DNA from: Bacteroidales bacterium
Lineage (GTDB): Bacteria; Bacteroidota; Bacteroidia; Bacteroidales; UBA932
DNA length: 43,381 bases
NCBI GenBank assembly: GCA_017546585.1
Contig: JAFYWC010000010.1
Location: forward strand, 1-43,381
Direction: 5' to 3'
A program made the translations under genes and the position numbers. The notes beneath the pieces are model-generated. The model searched no databases and had not been told where the DNA came from. It worked only from the letters and a program-made list of their open reading frames with translations. Below, piece after piece: positions 390-34,828 of the stretch; the stretch's first letter is position 1, and every line of letters starts with the position of its first letter.

Positions 390-3218
390 ATGACTCAGAA
401 ATATAAGAATTTCCTCTCTGCCGCGAGAAAAGCTGTAAGCAAAGACCGAATATATACTGATGATCTCAGGTTGTTTGCCTGGGGTACCGATGCCGGTTTC
501 TATAGATTGGTGCCTAAGATCATCATTAGAGCCAAAAATGAAAACGAAGTTTCAACTCTTTTGAAGCTAGCTTCTCAATATTCAGTACCTGTTACCTTCA
601 GAGCAGCGGGTACAAGCCTCTCTGGACAGTCTATATCTGACTCGGTCCTCATCGTAGCCGGCAAAAATTGGGAGTCTTATAGGATTAATGGAGAAGGGGA
701 GACGATCACTCTTCAGCCTGGTGTCATAGGTGCTGATGTCAATAAATATCTCAAGCCATATTCTAGAAAGTTTGGCCCGGATCCGGCTTCGATCAAAAGC
801 TGTATGGTAGGCGGAATCGTTATGAACAACGCTTCCGGTATGAGTTGTGGCACAGTTGCAAACAGTGACAAGACTCTCAAGTCTGCACGAATCGTTTTTG
901 CAGATGGTTATGTGCTAGATACAGCAGATGCTGCAAGTCGTGAGCATTTTCTTCAGACACATCCAAGTCTTGTTGCAGGCATTTTAGCATTGAGAGATAA
1001 GGTAATATCTGCCCCGAATCTCGTAGAGCGTATTAGACATAAATATTCTATAAAGAATGTAACTGGCCTTAACATTCTTCCTCTCATTACCTATACGGAT
1101 CCGATAGATATTATTCTGCATACTCTTGTGGGTTCAGAGGGCACCTTGGCCTTCATTAGTGAGGTTACTATGCGCACCCTCCCTGTTGCTCCAATGCAGG
1201 CCAACGCGATGGTGTATTTCAAGGATATGTCTGAAGCTGCGAGAGCGGTCATCGCTATGAAATCAGCCTCCGTATCTGCAGCAGAGATGCTTGACAAACG
1301 TTCTCTCAAGTCAGTTAATGCAGGTGAAGTCGATGGTCTTACTGCGGTTTTGACCAAGGTAGAAGCTCAGACAGAGGACGAACTGGTATCAAGGATCGAA
1401 GAAATAACTTCAATACTTAGTGCATTCGAGACGTACGGCGACTTCTCTTTCACATCCGATCCCGAGATCTATGACAAGTATTGGGCAATCCGTTCCGGCA
1501 TTTTTCCGACTGTGGGTGGAATGCGCAGACCAGGTACAACCTGTCTTATTGAAGATGTCGCGTTCCACGTCGAAGACCTTGCAGAGGCTGTGACTGATCT
1601 TTCAGATCTTCTCGACAGACACGGTTACGATGATTCGTGTATCTATGGACACGCGCTTGAGGGTAATTTCCATTTTATTATAAATCAGTCGTTTGCAACT
1701 CCAGAGGACGTAGATCGCTACAAGGCGATGATGAACGATGTGGCTGATCTTGTGGTCAGAAAATACGATGGCTCTCTCAAGGCTGAACACGGCACCGGAC
1801 GTAATATGGCACCTTTCGTAGAGTACGAATGGGGAGCGGATGCCTATGGTGTTATGAAGGAGATCAAGGCGTTATTTGATCCTGATAACATCCTGAATCC
1901 TGGTGTTATCTTCAATGATGATCCGGAGTGCAGCTTCAAGAACTTCAAGGCGTTACCCCTCCTTGAACCAGGAGAAGGAGCTCCTGCTGAAGCCGTAGAT
2001 GCATACGAACGACTTAACAAGTGCATAGAGTGCGGCTTCTGTGAAGTCAACTGTGTGTCTTGCGGCTTCACGCTTTCATCAAGGACAAGAATAGCCCTTC
2101 AGAGAGAAATTGCATATCTGGAAGCGAGTGGGAACGATCCGAAAAGGCTTAAAACTCTCAAACGACATTATAAGTATTCCGGTGAACAGACCTGCGCAGG
2201 TGACGGCCTATGCTCGAGGTCTTGCCCTATGGGCATCAACGTTGCTGACCTTACTCACGAGGTCCGTCGACGCAATATGCCAGCGGCGGGAAGGACTGTC
2301 GGTTCATTTGCAGCAAATCATTTTGCCGGTGTCAAATCATCTTTGAGATCTGTTCTCAAGGTTGCGGATAGTGCGCATAAGGTGCTGAAGACCAAATCGA
2401 TGACTTCTGTTGCGAAGGCATTGCATTCAGTAGGTTTTCCTCTCTGGACACCTTCAATGCCGGATGCTTACAATCCTGATGGACTTGAAACTTCTGTGGC
2501 TTCGGAGAGTCTCAAGGTGGTATATTTCCCAAGCTGCATCAACCAGACGATGGGTGTGGAATCTGACCAGAAGAATCTTAGGCCTCTTGCTGAAGAAATG
2601 ACTATACTCTTGAACAAGGCTGGTTATGAGGTGATGTTCCCTGATAATATGCCTTCGCTTTGTTGTGGTACAATCTGGGAAAGCAAAGGACTGCCAGAAA
2701 TAGCGGACAGGAAGACAGCCGAGCTGGAAGAAGCTCTGTTCAGAGCGTCTGACGGAGGCAGATATCCGGTCATATGTGACCAGAGCCCCTGTCTGCACAG
2801 GATGAAGCAGAGGATGACAAAAGTGGAACTTTACGAGTCAGCTGAATTTGTGTGGAAGTTCTTGAAAGACAGACTGATATTCACGCAGTCAGATATACCT
2901 GTAGCCCTTCATCTTACCTGCTCTTCAAAGCTTATGAAGATAGATGAGATTCTGTATGGCCTTGCTTCTCTTTGCTCGTCAGATGTCCTCGTTCCGGAGG
3001 GAGTTGGGTGCTGCGGATTCGCAGGTGACAAGGGTATGACACACCCTGAACTGAATGCGTATGCACTTCGTAAACTTGCAGAGCAGATAAAGGAAAAAGG
3101 CATCGAAGTCGGATATTCCAACAGCCGTACTTGTGAAATGGGACTCCGAACAAACTCCGGAATCCCATATCGCTCAATCATTTATCTTGTGAATGCTTCG
3201 ACTGAAGCAAAGAAATAG
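390..3218 (+). CDS. FAD-binding and 4Fe-4S oxidoreductase (D-lactate/glycolate dehydrogenase type)
   Basis: This 942-aa protein joins a PCMH-type FAD-binding domain (VTFRAAGTSLSGQS near residue 70; GGIVMNNASGMSCGT near 150), a GlcD-like FAD-oxidase C-terminal domain (to about 515), a bacterial ferredoxin pair (CIECGFCEVNC from about 545 and CAGDGLCSRSCPMG from about 602) and a C-terminal CCG heterodisulfide-reductase-like domain (CCGTIW at 758, CCGFAG at 874). The architecture is that of the large fused 2-hydroxyacid dehydrogenases such as Dld-II/YdiJ, which oxidise D-lactate, glycolate or D-2-hydroxyglutarate and pass electrons through Fe-S centres to quinone. The exact substrate cannot be read from sequence. 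No signal peptide is visible, so it is probably cytoplasmic or peripheral to the membrane. It has its own promoter and is convergent, with a one-base gap, with the glycosyltransferase gene on the other strand. Confidence 0.9.
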   Translation: MTQKYKNFLSAARKAVSKDRIYTDDLRLFAWGTDAGFYRLVPKIIIRAKNENEVSTLLKLASQYSVPVTFRAAGTSLSGQSISDSVLIVAGKNWESYRINGEGETITLQPGVIGADVNKYLKPYSRKFGPDPASIKSCMVGGIVMNNASGMSCGTVANSDKTLKSARIVFADGYVLDTADAASREHFLQTHPSLVAGILALRDKVISAPNLVERIRHKYSIKNVTGLNILPLITYTDPIDIILHTLVGSEGTLAFISEVTMRTLPVAPMQANAMVYFKDMSEAARAVIAMKSASVSAAEMLDKRSLKSVNAGEVDGLTAVLTKVEAQTEDELVSRIEEITSILSAFETYGDFSFTSDPEIYDKYWAIRSGIFPTVGGMRRPGTTCLIEDVAFHVEDLAEAVTDLSDLLDRHGYDDSCIYGHALEGNFHFIINQSFATPEDVDRYKAMMNDVADLVVRKYDGSLKAEHGTGRNMAPFVEYEWGADAYGVMKEIKALFDPDNILNPGVIFNDDPECSFKNFKALPLLEPGEGAPAEAVDAYERLNKCIECGFCEVNCVSCGFTLSSRTRIALQREIAYLEASGNDPKRLKTLKRHYKYSGEQTCAGDGLCSRSCPMGINVADLTHEVRRRNMPAAGRTVGSFAANHFAGVKSSLRSVLKVADSAHKVLKTKSMTSVAKALHSVGFPLWTPSMPDAYNPDGLETSVASESLKVVYFPSCINQTMGVESDQKNLRPLAEEMTILLNKAGYEVMFPDNMPSLCCGTIWESKGLPEIADRKTAELEEALFRASDGGRYPVICDQSPCLHRMKQRMTKVELYESAEFVWKFLKDRLIFTQSDIPVALHLTCSSKLMKIDEILYGLASLCSSDVLVPEGVGCCGFAGDKGMTHPELNAYALRKLAEQIKEKGIEVGYSNSRTCEMGLRTNSGIPYRSIIYLVNASTEAKK

Positions 3219-27448: not shown

Positions 27449-28870
27449 ATGTCAAGCATCGAGTGTTTTGTGCCATCTATGTCCGGAGAGGACATATCTG
27501 TCACAGTCGAATCATTCAGCCGCAGCAGTTCGTTTGTCGGTGTAACCATTCTTTCAGGCGTGTCGCTCCGTTCTACCGAAACTCTCAGGAGCATCGCCGA
27601 AGCCTCATCGGAAAAATATGTACTGATCTACACAAAGAGCACTCCGCTTGAAGCGGGAATGTTTGCTCTGGACCGCATCGTGTCGATAGCGGAAGATACC
27701 GGTGCGGATATGCTCTATGCTGACCACCATACAGTAAAGACAGATGCCGAGGGCAATCCGGTAAAGACAAGACATCCTCTCATCGATTGCCAGCCTGGCG
27801 CCCTCAGGGACGACTTCGACTTCGGAAGCGTTCTTGTGTTCAAGCGAGCGTCTCTCAGAAGAGCAGTGCGCGCAATGGATAAGGACTACGAATATGGAGC
27901 CCTTTATGATCTTCGCCTGAGGATGAAGAAGATCGTTCACGTCAATGAATTCCTTTATACTGAGATAGAGACAGACGACCGCAAGTCGGGAGAGAAACTC
28001 TTCGACTATGTGGATCCTAAGAACCGTGCCGTACAGATCGAGATGGAGGAGATCTGCACGGCATATCTCAAGAGGATCGGTGCATACCTTGAGCCTGTCT
28101 TCAAGGATCCGGATCCGTCGGACTTCGAGCCTTGCGCATATCCTGTCACAGCATCTGTTGTGATACCTGTGTTCAACAGGATCAGGACAGTGAAGGACGC
28201 TGTAGTCAGTGCTCTCGGGCAGGTATGTGACTTTGAATACAATGTGATTGTGGTGGACAACCACTCGACAGACGGCACTACAGAACTGCTTCAGGAGATG
28301 GCTGCAGAGAATCCTAGGCTTGTGCACATTGTTCCTGCAAGAGAGGATCTTGCCATCGGAGGCTGCTGGAACCTTGCTGTCCACAGCGAGCATTGCGGAG
28401 AATATGCGGTCCAGCTTGACAGCGACGACGTATATAGCGGCCCTGATACCCTTCAAAAGGTTGTGGATGCATTCCGTGAGCAGAAGTGCGCAATGCTTGT
28501 GGGTACATATCAGATGACTGATTTTCAGATGAATCCGATTCCTCCGGGAATCATTGACCATAAGGAGTGGACTCCTGAGAACGGACATAACAATGCGCTT
28601 AGGGTCAATGGATTAGGCGCTCCGCGTGCTTTCTGGACTCCGCTTCTGCGTACAATCAATCTGCCTAATACAAGTTACGGAGAAGACTACGCGTTGGGTC
28701 TCCGCATCTGCAGGGAGTATCGTATCGGCCGCATCTATGATGTCCTTTATTTCTGCCGCCGTTGGGATGGAAACTCCGATGCCGCGCTTGACATCGTGAA
28801 AGTGAATGCAAACAATCTTTACAAGGACAGCATCCGTACTTGGGAACTTGAGGCGAGAAGACGCAGATGA
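27449..28870 (+). CDS. GT2 glycosyltransferase with an extra N-terminal domain
   Basis: A 473-aa cytoplasmic protein. A canonical GT2 GT-A domain starts near residue 231 ([18 protein letters not shown]), with [10 protein letters not shown] and the metal-binding VQLDSDDVY, and runs to the C-terminus. The first 225 residues look like a second, degenerate GT-A-like half ([28 protein letters not shown]) lacking a clear DxD, so only the C-terminal half is confidently catalytic. No transmembrane segment is seen. The stop overlaps the next ATG by 4 bp (ATGA), so the two are coupled. Acceptor and donor are unknown. Confidence 0.85.
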
Positions 28871-31119
28871 AAAAAGACAGAATACACAAATTTGTAGGCG
28901 ACCAGCTTTCGAGATGGCCATTGGCCTGTGAGAACTTCAGACTTCTCAAGAATGTGCAGACCAGGGAGGTGGAGGTAGGGGGACTGACCGTGAGGCTTCA
29001 GTTCAATCCTGCCAGAATGGTCTCGTCTGCTGCAAAACTCTCAAAGGAGGATATAGCCAAAAGGAGGTGCTTCCTTTGCCGTGAAAACAGGCCTGCGGAG
29101 CAGATAATGATGAAGTTCGAGGGACGCAAGGGCAAGAAATACCATATCCTTGTGAATCCTTATCCGATATTTCCTGACCATCTTGTAATCGCCAAGAACA
29201 AGCACACCGACCAGTCGATCTGGCACCGTTATGTGGATATGCTCGATCTGGCTGCCAAATATCAGGGATATACATTCTTCTATAATGGTCCTTGCTGCGG
29301 AGCCTCCGCACCGGACCACCATCATTTCCAGGGCGCACCGAAAGGACTGATGCCTTTGGAAAACGATATCAACTCGGTTATTGCATCAGAAGAGGCTTCT
29401 CTTTCGTATGTAACATCTGTACAGGATGCGAAACTTTACCATTACGGGAAATTCACTACAGGAATATTTGTGATCCGTGCAGAGACATCCAAGTCTGCCG
29501 CAAAGATGTTCTATCGCCTGCTTGACAGTGCAGATATGCCGGAGGGAGACAATGAACCGAGGATAAATCTTGTATCATACTACGCCGACGGAGAATTCCG
29601 TTCGATTGTGATATTCCGTCGCTGCCATCGTTCTCATCACTATTTCAGTGACGGCCCGGACCATCTTACGATGAGCCCTGGCTGCGCAGATATGGCCGGA
29701 GTCTTCATTGTTCCGGTTGAAGAGGAGTACCATAAGATCGACTCGCAGCTCTTGTCGGATATGCTTGGCGAGGTCTGTATCTCCAAGGAGGAGGAACGCT
29801 TGCTCATATGGCGCTTGAAGCGCACACAACAGACTGTGGATGTGGGAATTATGTCGGCTCCGGAGATTGAGTTCGAGATTCTCGCTGACGGTGCCGGCCC
29901 GAGAAAGGCTGTCTTCCGTGAGGGCAAGATCGTCTATGACGGCGCATTGTATGACGAACTCTACTTTGATGCCCAGACTCTCTCCACGCAGTTTGCGGAA
30001 CCGTCTTTCATACTCTATGGAGTCACCATCGGAAAGAACTTCCATTGGGAGAGAAAGGAAGACCAAAAATTTGCAGGTTCCCTCAAGATCATAGTCGAGA
30101 AGGGAATGCTGACCGCCATAAACGTCATCGGAATAGAGGATTATCTTCTGAGCGTGATTTCTTCCGAGATGAGTGCATCTGCTTCGGAGGAGTTCCTCAA
30201 GGCACACGCAGTCATCTCCCGTTCCTGGCTGATGGCCCAGATGCATCGCTCTGATGAACATAAGGCAAACACGCCTGAGGGTATAAATTCAGTTCCTGAA
30301 CTCGTTTCTCATCTTGATACTATGTTCCATAAGGAGCAGCCTGAGGAGAGTTCGGAAGTTGTGGAGTACGAAAAATGGTACGACAAGGAAGATCATTCCC
30401 ATTTCGATGTCTGCGCAGATGATCATTGCCAGAGATATCAAGGACTTACCCGCGCTACCGGAACAACTGTCAGAAAGGTGATCGACGCGACCTGGGGACA
30501 GGTTCTCCATTATGATAGACGTCTTTGTGATGCACGCTTCTCAAAATGCTGTGGAGGACGAATGGAATGCTTCTCGACCTGTTGGGAAGATACAGACCTT
30601 CCGTATCTTCAGCCGCTGCCGGATACCGCCGGCTATGAGGAAGGAGGAAGGTGTTTCTGTGACACTCAGGATAAGGTAATCCTAGGCCAGGTACTCAACA
30701 ACTACGACCAGGAGACAGTCGACTTCTATCGTTGGACTGCCGTTTATCACAGGGATGAACTTTCTGAACTGATCACTCGTAGAAGCGGCATCGATATCGG
30801 AGCCCTTCAGAACATCGAGCCTCTTGAGAGGGGAGAGTCCGGCAGGATATACAAACTTCGCATAACCGGTTCCAATCGCACTATGGTTGTGGGCAAGGAA
30901 TTGGAAATCAGAAGGATATTATCGGAGAACCACTTGAAAAGCTCCGCCTTTGATGTGACTTTCGAAGGTGATAAGGTCATCCTTGACGGTGCCGGTTGGG
31001 GACACGGAGTCGGCCTCTGCCAGATCGGAGCAGCTGTTATGGCAGCGGAAGGATACACTTACCGTGAGATCCTCAGCCACTATTATCCAGGAACAGAATT
31101 GAAAGACATTTATGAATAG
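28867..31119 (+). CDS. HIT-type phosphorylase (DUF4922) fused to SpoIID/LytB domain
   Basis: A 750-aa fusion. The N-terminal half (about 1-310) is a DUF4922/HIT-superfamily domain: a Cys68-x2-Cys71 pair (RRCFLCREN), the [12 protein letters not shown] strand and the histidine triad HHHFQ (151-155), an HxHxQ as in GDP-galactose phosphorylase, GalT and Ap4A phosphorylase. The C-terminal part (about 360-745) is SpoIID/LytB: SVISSEMS with the predicted catalytic Glu434, [13 protein letters not shown], and the glycine/histidine motif [10 protein letters not shown] (710-719). SpoIID is a lytic transglycosylase acting on denuded glycan. No signal peptide is visible, so the SpoIID part would be cytoplasmic. 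It overlaps the AmpG-like gene by 8 bp. Confidence 0.85.
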
Positions 31120-32416
31120 AACGCACAGATCACCCTGGTTCTGGGTGCCTACGCTATATTTTGCCGAAGGAATCCCGTATTTCATCGTGAACAACATCTC
31201 TGTGGTGATGTTCAAGAATATGGGTATGCCTAACGGTATGCTCGCACTATATACGAGCCTTCTTTATCTCCCTTGGGTCATCAAGCCGCTTTGGAGTCCG
31301 TTTGTCGACATCATCAAGACAAAACGCTGGTGGATCGTCACAATGCAGCTCCTTATGTCTGCGGCAATGATCCTCCTTCCGTTTATGCTGCCGCAGGCTA
31401 CCGGCGAGGCGATCGCATCTACACCTCTTTTCTTTGCGACCCTCGCTCTGTTCTGGATAACAGCCTTTGCATCTGCCACCCACGACATCGCTGCAGACGG
31501 ATTCTATATGCTCGGCCTCGATTCCGGAACTCAGGCTGAATATGTCGGCATCAGAAGCACATTCTACAGACTTTCATCCATCTTCGGTCAGGGAGTCCTG
31601 GTTGCGCTTGCCGGATTCATCGAGACAAGCACATCGGATGTTTACTTCTCTTGGAAAATCACTCTGATCCTCTCCGCTGCAATCTTTGCTGCGGTATCCC
31701 TGTATCACACCTGGGTCCTGCCCCGCCCGGCTTCGGACAGAATGTCCACAGCCACCACTCCTGCAGAGATCTTCAGAGATTTCGAACGCACGTTCGTGAC
31801 CTTCTTCAAGAAGAAGCATATCCTGATGGCTATGCTTTTTATGCTCCTGTACAGACTGCCTGAGGCTTTCCTTGTCAAGATGATGAATCCTTTCCTGCTC
31901 GATTCCGTCGATCAGGGCGGACTCGGCCTTTCTACAGAAGCGGTCGGCATCGTTTACGGAACTGTCGGAGTCGCCGCGCTCACTGTCGGCGGCATTCTCG
32001 GAGGCATAGCCGCCTCTCGCTGGGGTCTCAAGAAGGCCTTGTGGCCGATGGCGCTCAGCCTTACGCTCCCTTGCCTGTCATTTGTCTTTCTTGCGGCTTT
32101 TCAGCCTCAAAATATCTGGATTACAGGGTCTTGCGTGGCGCTTGACCAGTTCGGATACGGCTTTGGATTCACTGCATATATGCTCTATCTGATATATTTC
32201 TCGGAGGGAGAGTTCAAGACGGCACACTATTCGCTATGTACTGCGTTTATGGCCTTGAGTATGATGATTCCTGGTATGGTTGCCGGATACATCCAGGAGT
32301 GGCTCGGCTACACTACGTTCTTTATTTTCGTAATGTTCTGCTGCCTTGTCACTGTAGCTGTGGTAAGCACTGTCAAGGTGAATCCGGAATTTGGTAAGAA
32401 AACAATCAGTAAATAA
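31112..32416 (+). CDS. ampG: AmpG-like MFS muropeptide permease
   Basis: A 434-aa major facilitator with about 12 hydrophobic helices. Its N-terminus (FWVPTLYFAEGIPYFIVNN) and the LPWVIKPLWSPFVD and FASATHDIAADG segments are diagnostic of AmpG-type permeases, which bring GlcNAc-anhydroMurNAc peptides across the inner membrane in peptidoglycan recycling. The signature is shared with acetyl-CoA transporter-like MFS members, but the neighbours (SpoIID fusion, NamZ) favour AmpG. It is 6 bp from the serpin. Confidence 0.8.
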   Translation: MNRTHRSPWFWVPTLYFAEGIPYFIVNNISVVMFKNMGMPNGMLALYTSLLYLPWVIKPLWSPFVDIIKTKRWWIVTMQLLMSAAMILLPFMLPQATGEAIASTPLFFATLALFWITAFASATHDIAADGFYMLGLDSGTQAEYVGIRSTFYRLSSIFGQGVLVALAGFIETSTSDVYFSWKITLILSAAIFAAVSLYHTWVLPRPASDRMSTATTPAEIFRDFERTFVTFFKKKHILMAMLFMLLYRLPEAFLVKMMNPFLLDSVDQGGLGLSTEAVGIVYGTVGVAALTVGGILGGIAASRWGLKKALWPMALSLTLPCLSFVFLAAFQPQNIWITGSCVALDQFGYGFGFTAYMLYLIYFSEGEFKTAHYSLCTAFMALSMMIPGMVAGYIQEWLGYTTFFIFVMFCCLVTVAVVSTVKVNPEFGKKTISK

Positions 32417-32422
32417 ATCGAT

Positions 32423-33562
32423 ATGAAAAAGTTGATGTTCATCGCTGCATTAGTTTCAATCGCAGCCTGCGGCCCTAAATATCCTAAGCCGGAGAAAGGT
32501 TCGGATGTGGGTTTCGCATTGTCTTTTTTCCAGAGAGTAAATGAGACTGTAGATTATGATCAGAATATCGTTGTGTCGCCATACAGCGCAGGCGTAGCAT
32601 TGTCAATGCTTGCAGAGGGTGCTGAGGGACAGACAAGGGCCGAGTTTGACGACGCTCTCAACGGATGTCTTTTCGGAAGCGAGGACCTCGGAGCCAATGA
32701 CAGCATTCAGGTCAAGTCTGCAAACTCTGTATGGGTTTCTGACAACTTCAGCATCAGAAACAGATATGTAGATCTTCTTGAGAAGGATTTCGATGCATTC
32801 ATCACTACACAGAACTTCTCTGATCCTGCTACAGTAAAGGCCATCAACAACTGGTGCTATGAAAACACAGAAGGCAAGATCGGAAACATCATCGACCGTC
32901 TCGGCCCTAACGCTGTTATGGTTCTGATGAACGCACTTTATTTCAACGCACCTTGGGAGTATGCTTTCGATGCAGCACAGACCAGGAACGGAATCTTCCA
33001 CGGAATCGTTGAGGATAGGGAAGTGCCTATGATGACACGCAAGGCCAGATATATGTATGCCGAGTACCAGGGCTGCCAGATGGTGAGACTGCCTTATTCA
33101 GGCGACAGATACGCTATGTACATCGTCTTGCCTCCAGAGAACTGGGATGCAAATTCGATCATTCCGTACATCAGCGAGAGTGCATACAAAGCTGCTATGA
33201 ATATGCTTTCTGCCCAGCAGGTTGTGGTGAAGATGCCTAAATTCAAACTCGAGGCTGCATTCGTGCTCAACGAGGCATTGCAGAAGATGGGTATCGAGAG
33301 CGCGTTCACTGCAGGTGCAGATTTCAGCGGCATCTCGGCAATGGGCCCTCTCTGCCTTGATTCAGTGAAGCAGAAATGCTATATTGATGTGTCGGAGAAA
33401 GGAACAGAGGCCGCTGCAGTGACAATCGCACAGGTGCGCCTTACTTCAGCGTCTCCAACACCGGTAAGAACAATGAATGTCGACAGACCATTCCTGTTCT
33501 TCATCGCCGACAGTGAGACAGATAACATCCTTTTTGCAGGAAAGATCGTAGATCTTAAATAA
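32423..33562 (+). CDS. serpin lipoprotein
   Basis: A 379-aa serine-protease-inhibitor fold with an SPII signal (MKKLMFIAALVSIAAC, Cys16). Serpin landmarks are VVSPYSAGVALSMLAEGAEG, MNALYFNAPWEYAFD, the hinge of the reactive loop EKGTEAAAVT (Glu325 to Thr334) and the closing VDRPFLFFIADSETDNILFAG. The hinge is small and Ala-rich, so the protein should be inhibitory. Counting from the hinge puts the P1-P1' bond at about Thr341-Ser342. It would protect the cell surface or periplasm from a host or self protease; the target is unknown. It lies between the permease and NamZ, with 6-bp gaps on both sides. Confidence 0.92.
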   Translation: MKKLMFIAALVSIAACGPKYPKPEKGSDVGFALSFFQRVNETVDYDQNIVVSPYSAGVALSMLAEGAEGQTRAEFDDALNGCLFGSEDLGANDSIQVKSANSVWVSDNFSIRNRYVDLLEKDFDAFITTQNFSDPATVKAINNWCYENTEGKIGNIIDRLGPNAVMVLMNALYFNAPWEYAFDAAQTRNGIFHGIVEDREVPMMTRKARYMYAEYQGCQMVRLPYSGDRYAMYIVLPPENWDANSIIPYISESAYKAAMNMLSAQQVVVKMPKFKLEAAFVLNEALQKMGIESAFTAGADFSGISAMGPLCLDSVKQKCYIDVSEKGTEAAAVTIAQVRLTSASPTPVRTMNVDRPFLFFIADSETDNILFAGKIVDLK

Positions 33563-33568
33563 TCGTAT

Positions 33569-34828
33569 ATGAGGTCTGGAAAAACTATTCTCGCACTATT
33601 CATCATTGCAATATTCGGTATCGTGGCGGAGGCGAAGGAGCCTGTTGTCAAGACCGGAATCGAGGTCCTCAGAGACAGAGGATTCGAGGGACTTGTAGGC
33701 AAACGAGTAGGACTGGTAACCAACCCTAGCGGTGTGGACAGCCAGCTTCGCTCCACCATCGATATTCTTTATAACGCCCCAGGCGTTGAACTTGTCGCCC
33801 TTTATGGACCCGAGCACGGAGTCAGGGGCGACCTTTATGCCGGAGACCACGTTACGGATTTCAAGGATCCTGCAACTGGCCTTCCGGTATATTCCATCTA
33901 TGGCGCTACGCGCAAGCCTACTCCAGATATGCTCAAGGGTATCGATGTGGTGGTCTATGATATCCAGGATGTCGGAGTTCGTTCATATACTTTCATCAGC
34001 TCATTGGGTCTGGTTATGGAAGCCTGCTCGGCCGAAGGCATTGAGGTGATGGTTCTTGATCGTCCTAACCCTTTGGGTGGTAACAAGATAGAGGGATGTT
34101 TGGTCGAACAGCCATTCAATTCGTTCGTAAGTCAGTACAGAATACCATATGTTTATGGACTGACTGTCGGAGAATTGGCTGTGATGATCAACGAAGAAGG
34201 TATGAACAGAGGACAGAAGGGAAATCAGGAGCCTGTGAAATGTACTCTATCTGTAGTTCCTATGGAAGGATGGACAAGAGATATGCTATATGAAGATACC
34301 GGACTTCCGTGGGTGCTTCCTTCGCCTAATATTCCATACAAGGATACTCCGATGTATTATGCATCTTCCGGAGTCTGCGGTGAACTCTATGGCTTTATGA
34401 ATATAGGTATCGGATATACACTTCCTTTTCAGTTGTTCGGAGCGACCTGGCTTGATCCTGAGAAGCTCAAGGCCCGCCTTGAAGAATACGCTCTTCCGGG
34501 AGTATCATTCCGTACCATATGGTTCAAGCCTTTCTCGGGAAGCCAGAAAGGGCAGCTGGTCGGAGGACTCCAGTTCTTCTTTACAGACTATGAAAATGCA
34601 CGTATTACGGAGACGCAATTCTATGTGATGCAGGCAGTTGCTGAACTCTATCCGAACAAGAAGGCGTTCGAGATCATTACAGGTTACGGTCTTTTCGATA
34701 AAGTCTGTGGCACGGATTATGTAAGAACAGAGTTTAGCAAAAGGTACAAAGTCAGCGACATCGTTGATTACTGGCGGAAAGACGAGGAGCCCTTCCGCGC
34801 ATTATCGCAGAGGTACCACATCTATTAA
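33569..34828 (+). CDS. namZ: NamZ-type exo-beta-N-acetylmuramidase (DUF1343)
   Basis: A 419-aa exported protein with signal MRSGKTILALFIIAIFGIVAEA. The DUF1343/GH171 motifs are present: GKRVGLVTNPSGVD, the LYGPEHGVRGD loop (Glu and His at the proposed active site), DVVVYDIQDVGVRSYTF and RPNPLGG. NamZ releases MurNAc from the non-reducing ends of peptidoglycan fragments. Position in the chain after AmpG and the serpin fits a salvage operon. No MurQ or MurK is visible in the window. Confidence 0.88.
   Translation: MRSGKTILALFIIAIFGIVAEAKEPVVKTGIEVLRDRGFEGLVGKRVGLVTNPSGVDSQLRSTIDILYNAPGVELVALYGPEHGVRGDLYAGDHVTDFKDPATGLPVYSIYGATRKPTPDMLKGIDVVVYDIQDVGVRSYTFISSLGLVMEACSAEGIEVMVLDRPNPLGGNKIEGCLVEQPFNSFVSQYRIPYVYGLTVGELAVMINEEGMNRGQKGNQEPVKCTLSVVPMEGWTRDMLYEDTGLPWVLPSPNIPYKDTPMYYASSGVCGELYGFMNIGIGYTLPFQLFGATWLDPEKLKARLEEYALPGVSFRTIWFKPFSGSQKGQLVGGLQFFFTDYENARITETQFYVMQAVAELYPNKKAFEIITGYGLFDKVCGTDYVRTEFSKRYKVSDIVDYWRKDEEPFRALSQRYHIY

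Follow-up and report, generated by a model that had tools for sequence, protein, structure and literature searches.

A signal-less SpoIID domain fused to a DUF4922 protein in a Bacteroidales genome, and its probable place in muropeptide salvage

Bacteroidota are major gut bacteria and live among fragments of peptidoglycan. The use of such fragments has been described for Tannerella forsythia, where a co-transcribed operon holds the genes xanthan lyase, gtf, gtf, lytB, ampG, ybbC, murT, murK and murQ; lytB, located before ampG, figures in the accessible part of that report as an annotated gene only ('lytB, amidase enhancer precursor') (PMC5388701). In the sections available of a second report, no AnmK ortholog is predicted in T. 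forsythia, AmpG imports mainly the disaccharides formed by N-acetylglucosamine (GlcNAc) with N-acetylmuramic acid (MurNAc) or 1,6-anhydroMurNAc (anhMurNAc), namely GlcNAc-MurNAc and GlcNAc-anhMurNAc, the organism grows on supernatant of an E. coli ampG mutant containing GlcNAc-anhMurNAc, and what becomes of anhMurNAc afterwards 'remains to be explored' (PMC7670621). T. forsythia MurK neither accepts nor phosphorylates anhMurNAc, according to the part of the source at hand (PMC5790795). Given an organism without a predicted AnmK that imports GlcNAc-anhMurNAc and has a MurK that refuses anhMurNAc, the distribution of AnmK was surveyed in the present study, which concerns a gene of a Bacteroidales bacterium (GTDB lineage Bacteroidales; UBA932) on contig JAFYWC010000010.1 of GenBank assembly GCA_017546585.1. 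The whole stretch analyzed, positions 1 to 43,381 (43,381 nucleotides), is referred to as the window. The gene encodes a DUF4922 protein of the HIT superfamily fused to a SpoIID/LytB domain, and this SpoIID-HIT protein very probably belongs to a muropeptide/MurNAc salvage pathway of the Bacteroidota. The SpoIID/LytB and DUF4922 families are already known; apparently new are a clade of SpoIIDs that lack a signal peptide and the DUF4922-SpoIID fusion. No description of a cytosolic SpoIID or of such a fusion was found in the titles and selected passages of the open-access literature searched, subscription papers lying mostly outside the search.

The gene and the parts of its product are as follows.

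28867..31119, plus strand: fused DUF4922 (HIT-superfamily)-SpoIID protein, 750 amino acids (aa), signal-less (domain searches, hydropathy)
28894..29334, plus strand: DUF4922/Ap4A-phosphorylase-like N-terminal HIT-type domain, residues 10-156 (Pfam; profile against PDB 4i5t)
29317..29331, plus strand: HHHFQ active-site motif, residues 151-155 (conservation alignment)
29335..29826, plus strand: remainder of the HIT-type half, residues 157-320, with a weak ATP_transf (PF09830) resemblance below the cut-off
29827..31116, plus strand: signal-less SpoIID/LytB half, residues 321-750 (Pfam, NCBIfam and PDB matches, clade tree)
30166..30168, plus strand: catalytic Glu434, aligned with the SpoIID Glu of 4rwr/5i1t
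30394..30429, plus strand: H510-x5-C516-x3-H520-C521, resembling the C. difficile SpoIID zinc site (motif scan)
30994..31023, plus strand: G710-WGHGVGLCQ signature, residues 710-719, nearly invariant (conservation alignment)

The frame is present as a single copy in its own genome, has no internal stop, and joins a DUF4922 half to a complete SpoIID half. The Pfam DUF4922 model matched residues 10-156 (E 8e-57, 191.7 bits against a cut-off of 23.6), and Ap4A_phos_N matched residues 90-165 (E 4.9e-5, 23.3 bits against 23.1) with part of the model only. A profile built from 13 DUF4922 proteins retrieved yeast diadenosine tetraphosphate (Ap4A) phosphorylase 2 (Apa2, 4i5t; E 3.7e-5) from the PDB, with the His-x-His-x-Gln motif aligned, and ATP_transf stayed below its cut-off (E 0.096, 13.5 bits against 23.5). 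The initial annotation had read this half as GDP-galactose-phosphorylase- or GalT-like; by sequence it is placed in DUF4922 and, weakly, near Ap4A phosphorylase, and the likeness to GDP-L-galactose/GDP-glucose phosphorylases (GGP) lies in the HxHFQ-type motif, which we take to be that of GGP as well. According to the accessible part of PMC9871823, DUF4922 is also found in one group of GGP-like proteins from plants. The C-terminal half was also claimed to be SpoIID-like, and the domain search bore this out: Pfam SpoIID matched residues 412-549 (E 6e-22, 78.5 bits against 23), NCBIfam SpoIID_LytB (TIGR02669) scored 179.9 bits against 83.3, three solved SpoIID sequences in the PDB were matched at 7e-28 and weaker, and both family marks, the catalytic Glu and the GxGHGxG(L/M)xQ signature, are present. 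The cut-off of the stage II sporulation protein D equivalog (TIGR02870) was missed (144.3 against 234.75 bits).

The residues singled out in the initial annotation (HHHFQ, Cys68/Cys71, Glu434 and the SpoIID signature) lie where they were said to be and are nearly invariant in alignments. H151, H153 and C68 occur in 57/57 DUF4922 proteins (38 fused to SpoIID and 19 others), C71 and Q155 in 38/38 fused and 18/19 other proteins, and E434 in all 93 SpoIIDs aligned, comprising 38 fused, 35 separate signal-less and 20 exported sequences. With L and G denoting loci and genomes of the comparison set (G000 is the window's own genome), these counts leave out L012, L129, L130 and L131, whose C-terminus is cut or short, as well as L056 (G188), whose SpoIID contains a stop, and count the window copy (L001) once.

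The protein has no export signal or transmembrane segment by sequence, as the initial annotation had stated: its best 19-residue hydropathy is 1.44, compared with 2.69 for the AmpG-like protein and 2.01 for NamZ, both encoded nearby. The codons leading into the gene read TGA GGC GAG AAG ACG CAG ATG; since the in-frame stop lies five codons before the ATG with no start codon in between, a missed upstream start that would add an export signal was looked for and rejected. The property extends to relatives. Over the first 45 residues, the N-terminal hydropathy maximum (11-residue windows, mechanical starts; a crude measure whose ranges touch) was at most 1.88 in 35/36 separate signal-less SpoIIDs, a set that includes a piece of L056, the remaining one reaching 2.08, and at most 1.89 in 42/42 fused proteins. 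In 18/20 SpoIID paralogues it was at least 1.96, L092 and L100 failing with mechanical starts. Most separate signal-less SpoIID genes have nothing ahead of the domain's first strand. The extracytoplasmic targeting typical of characterized SpoIID/LytB members was not seen in the sequence, and we infer that the SpoIID-HIT protein resides in the cytosol.

When 20 SpoIID paralogues of the phylum were included in a tree, all 73 signal-less proteins formed a group containing none of them (support 0.89, branch 0.87). The motif H-x5-C-x3-4-H-C-Q, present in 37/37 fused and 35/35 separate members and in 0/20 exported paralogues, is similar to the zinc site in C. difficile SpoIID, given in the available part of the source as H134, C140, H145 and C146 (PMC6221140). 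Further marks of the group are FHW392-394, RSW and CDxRxSKCCGG.

The fusion is not an isolated oddity, and the two halves co-occur and fuse recurrently across the Bacteroidota. The fusion also occurs, at 68-95% identity, in twelve other Bacteroidales loci from metagenome-assembled genomes (MAGs; 7/12 titled ruminant gut; L012 is cut at a contig end), and 42 open frames hold both domains, that is, these twelve loci, the window genome and 29 further loci of the same genus. An assembly artefact or frameshift fusion was rejected on the intact frame seen here, the 12 other MAG loci and the 42 two-domain frames. Two fused proteins of the genus, in L130 (G301) and L131 (G300), end early at 470 and 522 aa with part of SpoIID lost, possibly through decay or an assembly fault. 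For the remaining sampled Bacteroidota, two separate genes are the usual arrangement. An evenly drawn phylum sample of 296 genomes, with signal-less SpoIID called at >=230 bits, contained 40 genomes with such a SpoIID, all 40 with DUF4922; G223 was the only genome with DUF4922 alone, and in four of the 40 (G009, G014, G093, G240) the matched stretch contained a stop. In a 198-genome sample of the window's order (thresholds E<=1e-30 for SpoIID, E<=1e-15 for DUF4922 and E<=1e-40 for the AmpG relative), SpoIID was found in 43 and DUF4922 in 42, all within the 43 (G426 lacked it). Where either half is present, both are found in 40/41 genomes of the phylum sample and 42/43 of the order sample. An AmpG relative accompanied all 43 SpoIID genomes of the order; beyond these, two more genomes, G417 and G472, matched at just 36-39% identity.

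A glycosyltransferase of family GT2 is a third frequent partner. In 15/18 mapped DUF4922 loci outside the own genus it is either fused to DUF4922 or no more than one gene away, the exceptions being L052, L061 and L062. GT2-DUF4922 fusions occur in G230 (826 aa), G465 (794) and G469 (765), DUF4922-SpoIID fusions in the own genus, G355 (669 aa) and G441 (687 aa), and triple GT2-DUF4922-SpoIID fusions in G330 (1101 aa, own genus) and in G456 (own family), where the frame was read to the contig end.

The signal-less SpoIID and AnmK (surveyed with PF03702) tend to exclude one another. Of the 198 order genomes, 5 have both, 38 only SpoIID, 130 only AnmK and 25 neither, so that AnmK occurs in 5/43 genomes with SpoIID and 130/155 without (Fisher p 1.3e-18). 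On a tree of threonyl-tRNA synthetase (ThrRS), in whose tip order the SpoIID genomes are spread over a single large group and a number of isolated ones, a dependent model of evolution was favoured over an independent one (likelihood ratio 32.6, chi-square p 1.4e-6). None of the 192 parametric simulations completed, out of 200 planned, reached this value, the largest being 12.8, and shared ancestry as sole cause of the exclusion was rejected on this test of a single-gene tree. The 88 genomes outside the tree comprise 73 with AnmK only, 14 with neither and 1 with SpoIID only; G386 was excluded because its ThrRS match came in two pieces. As a control, AnmK is present in all six genomes of the order whose sole SpoIID match is weak and falls outside the clade (G335, G339, G344, G347, G348, G354), indicating that the exclusion is not general to SpoIID. 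G223 retains NamZ, AmpG, GT2 and DUF4922, has no SpoIID match, and has AnmK. A strong MurQ match (>=280 bits) was found in 18/35 order genomes with SpoIID only, 5/5 with both, 6/35 with AnmK only and 0/5 with neither. The survey of the BcrAD_BadFG family gave matches too mixed for MurK to be counted.

The genes next to the fusion, and one on another contig of the own genome, are listed below.

27449..28870, plus strand: GT2 glycosyltransferase, 473 aa, a frequent partner, DUF4922-fused in other genomes
31112..32416, plus strand: AmpG-like importer of the major facilitator superfamily (MFS); TIGR00901 162.7 bits against a cut-off of 350, below it and hence AmpG-like only
32423..33562, plus strand: serpin with a lipobox-like N-terminus (by reading), between the AmpG-like and NamZ genes
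33569..34828, plus strand: exo-N-acetylmuramidase NamZ, hydrophobic N-terminus, probably exported
L300:1375-3651 (own genome, G000:C120): AmgK-like kinase-RapZ C-terminal fusion, adjoining a MurU-like gene

The fusion gene overlaps the GT2 gene by 4 base pairs and the AmpG-like gene by 8, and the order GT2, fusion, AmpG-like MFS, serpin, NamZ recurs in L002-L013 as far as the contigs reach. The initial annotation held that the pairing of the two halves is not explained by known pathways. This no longer stands, as the context is that of MurNAc/muropeptide salvage, and GT2, the next-door gene, had been overlooked. In G238 (L043 and L272) the cluster consists of genes for a golvesin-domain protein ('xanthan lyase' type), a 617-aa protein, GT2, DUF4922, SpoIID, AmpG and NamZ, followed by a flavin adenine dinucleotide (FAD) oxidase, an HGSNAT_cat membrane protein, MurK and MurQ; the HGSNAT_cat gene takes the position of T. 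forsythia murT, a match by position alone. MurK of G238 is closest in the PDB to 1zxo (hypothetical protein, 9.2e-121), and matches 8ow9 ('Putative novel MurNAc kinase') at 8.6e-114. Similar clusters with MurK-MurQ occur in L276, L277, L280 and L288, and in G340 and G458 MurQ immediately precedes SpoIID.

Several further features of these neighbourhoods were observed. The N-terminal 230 residues of the GT2 protein have no Pfam match, yet contain conserved residues across 43 aligned sequences of the phylum. The serpin gene separates the AmpG-like gene from NamZ in 11/11 fused loci whose contig reaches there and in 0 mapped split clusters; serpin-like genes are found in L059 and L066 a few genes from SpoIID or AmpG. 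In other families SpoIID lies away from AmpG, and a gene of ~370 codons is often next after it (e.g. L059:9398-10507); this is a GT4-type glycosyltransferase in one checked case, and a second reads alike. Within the window, positions 390-3218 encode an FAD/4Fe-4S oxidase, of D-lactate/glycolate type by reading, which is a relative of the gene after NamZ in G238 (L272). Such an oxidase is fitting for D-lactate release by MurQ, though MurQ was not found in the own genome.

Neither AnmK nor MurQ was detected in the own genome, which is 95.6% complete. It does encode a kinase of the MurK/GlcNAc-kinase family, matching 1zbs (hypothetical, 4e-53), 8oqk (7e-47) and 8ow7 (1e-46), both named GlcNAc kinase, and 8ow9 (8e-43). 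The AmgK-like protein on the other contig is of APH type and carries a fused RapZ C-terminal domain, the presence of which suggests that an amino-sugar phosphate is sensed. The nucleotidyltransferase that follows it matched best 4y7t (1.2e-16, residues 1-122), presumably MurU of P. putida, and 8hhd (MurNAc-1-phosphate uridylyltransferase, 2.9e-13). Free MurNAc could be used by these kinases after a prior step that opens the anhydro ring.

On this basis a pathway can be sketched. NamZ and other exported hydrolases would trim peptidoglycan outside the cell, and the AmpG-like carrier would bring GlcNAc-(anhydro)MurNAc to the cytosol. Tentatively, and with slightly less than even confidence, we propose that the fused protein is a cytosolic salvage enzyme whose SpoIID half acts like AnmK in opening the 1,6-anhydro ring once GlcNAc-anhMurNAc has been imported. 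The lytic-transglycosylase site with Glu434 would work in the hydrolytic direction, with GlcNAc attached or not, and the opened sugar would pass to ordinary MurNAc kinases (MurK, AmgK), SpoIID and kinase together replacing the combined ring opening and phosphorylation by AnmK. We know of no other SpoIID that runs in reverse inside the cell. In the accessible part of its description, Waddlia SpoIID yielded mainly non-anhydro products from denuded glycan, so that an active site of this kind can use water as acceptor (PMC6635528). The idea in the initial annotation of a cytoplasmic SpoIID acting on AmpG-imported fragments thus fits the neighbourhood, the co-inheritance and Tannerella physiology; the 'cleavage' assigned to it may not be the main chemistry, as the near-exclusion of AnmK points to ring opening.

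The chemistry of the HIT-type half is harder to specify. HIT enzymes of the HxHFQ type form a nucleotidyl-His intermediate, and from its motif and relatives this half should do the same. The link to GT2 suggests that the two share a nucleotide sugar, which might be handled by nucleotidyl transfer or phosphorolysis at His153, presumably for released GlcNAc or MurNAc; any one specific reaction named for the half would probably be wrong. A bolder and quite improbable extension is a single cytosolic machine of SpoIID, GT2 and HIT that conserves bond energy in the salvage of GlcNAc-anhMurNAc, in which SpoIID would open the strained 1,6-anhydro bond with water, phosphate or another acceptor, a reversed GT2 would move GlcNAc to a nucleotide, and the HIT half would phosphorolyze the nucleoside diphosphate sugar to a sugar-1-phosphate. 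If true, it would replace both AnmK and the glucosaminidase step.

A number of observations weigh against ring opening by the SpoIID half. In the parts of the sources available, growth of T. forsythia on free anhMurNAc is restricted and digests with its cell extract yielded, among other products, GlcNAc-anhMurNAc and anhMurNAc (PMC7670621); SpoIIDs make anhydro rings, no ring-opening member is among those described, and B. subtilis SpoIID, unlike that of Waddlia, gave no build-up of non-anhydro products (PMC6635528). The T. forsythia lytB is likened to the present gene by gene order, not by sequence. The exclusion is not absolute, with AnmK in 17/47 SpoIID-containing and 30/33 SpoIID-free genomes of a hand-chosen phylum set (80 of 92 wanted genomes used), and the ThrRS tree is a midpoint-rooted tree of one gene covering 110/198 order genomes. 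AmpG and DUF4922 are distributed like SpoIID, so that the exclusion is tied to SpoIID through the single case of G223, and in G188 SpoIID is broken by a stop and AnmK was not found. AnmK-like proteins of the order's AnmK-only genomes score below most elsewhere in the phylum and may serve another route; together with the scarcity of MurQ there, this means that the whole pathway, rather than AnmK, may have been displaced. The lack of MurQ in the own genome also counts here, as does the low confidence of the full-length AlphaFold model (12 sequences, relatives 68-95% identical; predicted local distance difference test 47.6, predicted template modelling score 0.38).

An alternative that we regard as unlikely but serious is that the SpoIID half cuts MurNAc-GlcNAc bonds of imported glycan oligomers in the cytosol, as a lytic transglycosylase or muramidase, the AnmK exclusion reflecting lineage-specific salvage strategies instead of a swap of one reaction. 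Its SpoIID catalytic and zinc-type residues are all intact, known SpoIIDs cleave denuded glycan (accessible parts of PMC6635528 and PMC6221140), MurQ too differs in AnmK-only genomes, and the like distribution of AmpG, DUF4922 and SpoIID means that the pathway may vary as a whole. However, the disaccharides mainly imported by T. forsythia AmpG hold no MurNAc-GlcNAc bond, as far as given in the available text (PMC7670621), and G223, where SpoIID alone is missing from the cluster, has AnmK. The frequent pairing of GT2 with DUF4922, the GT4-type gene after SpoIID in many genomes (family checked in one) and the several combinations in which the three proteins fuse would suit a system that builds or edits a cytosolic glycan, e.g. 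a MurNAc-containing or lipid-linked saccharide, and has only regulation in common with the salvage genes. We consider this improbable, given that the cluster runs on into AmpG, NamZ, MurK and MurQ in several genomes and that MurQ adjoins SpoIID in G340 and G458.

Two further alternatives concern the state and place of the SpoIID half. Domain fusions are sometimes regulatory, and a catalytically idle SpoIID might act as a muropeptide sensor or binding module controlling the HIT half; with Glu434 kept in 93/93 sequences and the zinc-type motif in 72/72 signal-less ones, free-standing genes included, this is very improbable. Non-classical export followed by periplasmic action, as in other SpoIIDs, is scarcely credible: described SpoIIDs do act outside the cytosol (available sections of PMC6635528 and PMC6221140), but the clade has no signal by N-terminal hydropathy, and fusion to a HIT-type enzyme and to GT2 favours the cytosol. 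Should ring opening by a cytosolic SpoIID prove true, a sporulation/division domain would be extended to intracellular metabolism and bacterial DUF4922 would be given a pathway. A gene family annotated merely as 'amidase enhancer' or SpoIID is a prime candidate for the use of anhydro sugars without AnmK.

The resemblance to AnmK lies in the proposed opening of the anhMurNAc ring; AnmK phosphorylates while opening the ring, shows no detectable relation to SpoIID, and is absent in 38/43 SpoIID-containing genomes of the order. With the Ap4A phosphorylases (Apa1/2) and GGP, the protein shares a DUF4922 domain with HxHFQ and a profile match to yeast Apa2, which is partial and weak, and it differs from them as a bacterial enzyme of ~300 aa tied to GT2 and SpoIID. 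The ampG-murTKQ operon of T. forsythia (Tanf_08345-08385; lytB Tanf_08360) has the same gene order as G238, GT-(GT)-lytB-ampG-ybbC-murT-murK-murQ, where we take ybbC to be a NamZ; unlike in T. forsythia, the lytB-like gene of the window is fused to DUF4922 and its cluster is without murK and murQ. The SpoIID/LytB transglycosylases of B. subtilis, C. difficile and Waddlia have the domain, the catalytic Glu and the GWGHGVGxCQ-type signature in common with the SpoIID half, which differs from them in being signal-less, in forming a separate clade with the additional FHW, RSW and CDxRxSKCCGG marks, and in being joined to, or inherited together with, a HIT-type enzyme in the setting of a salvage cluster.

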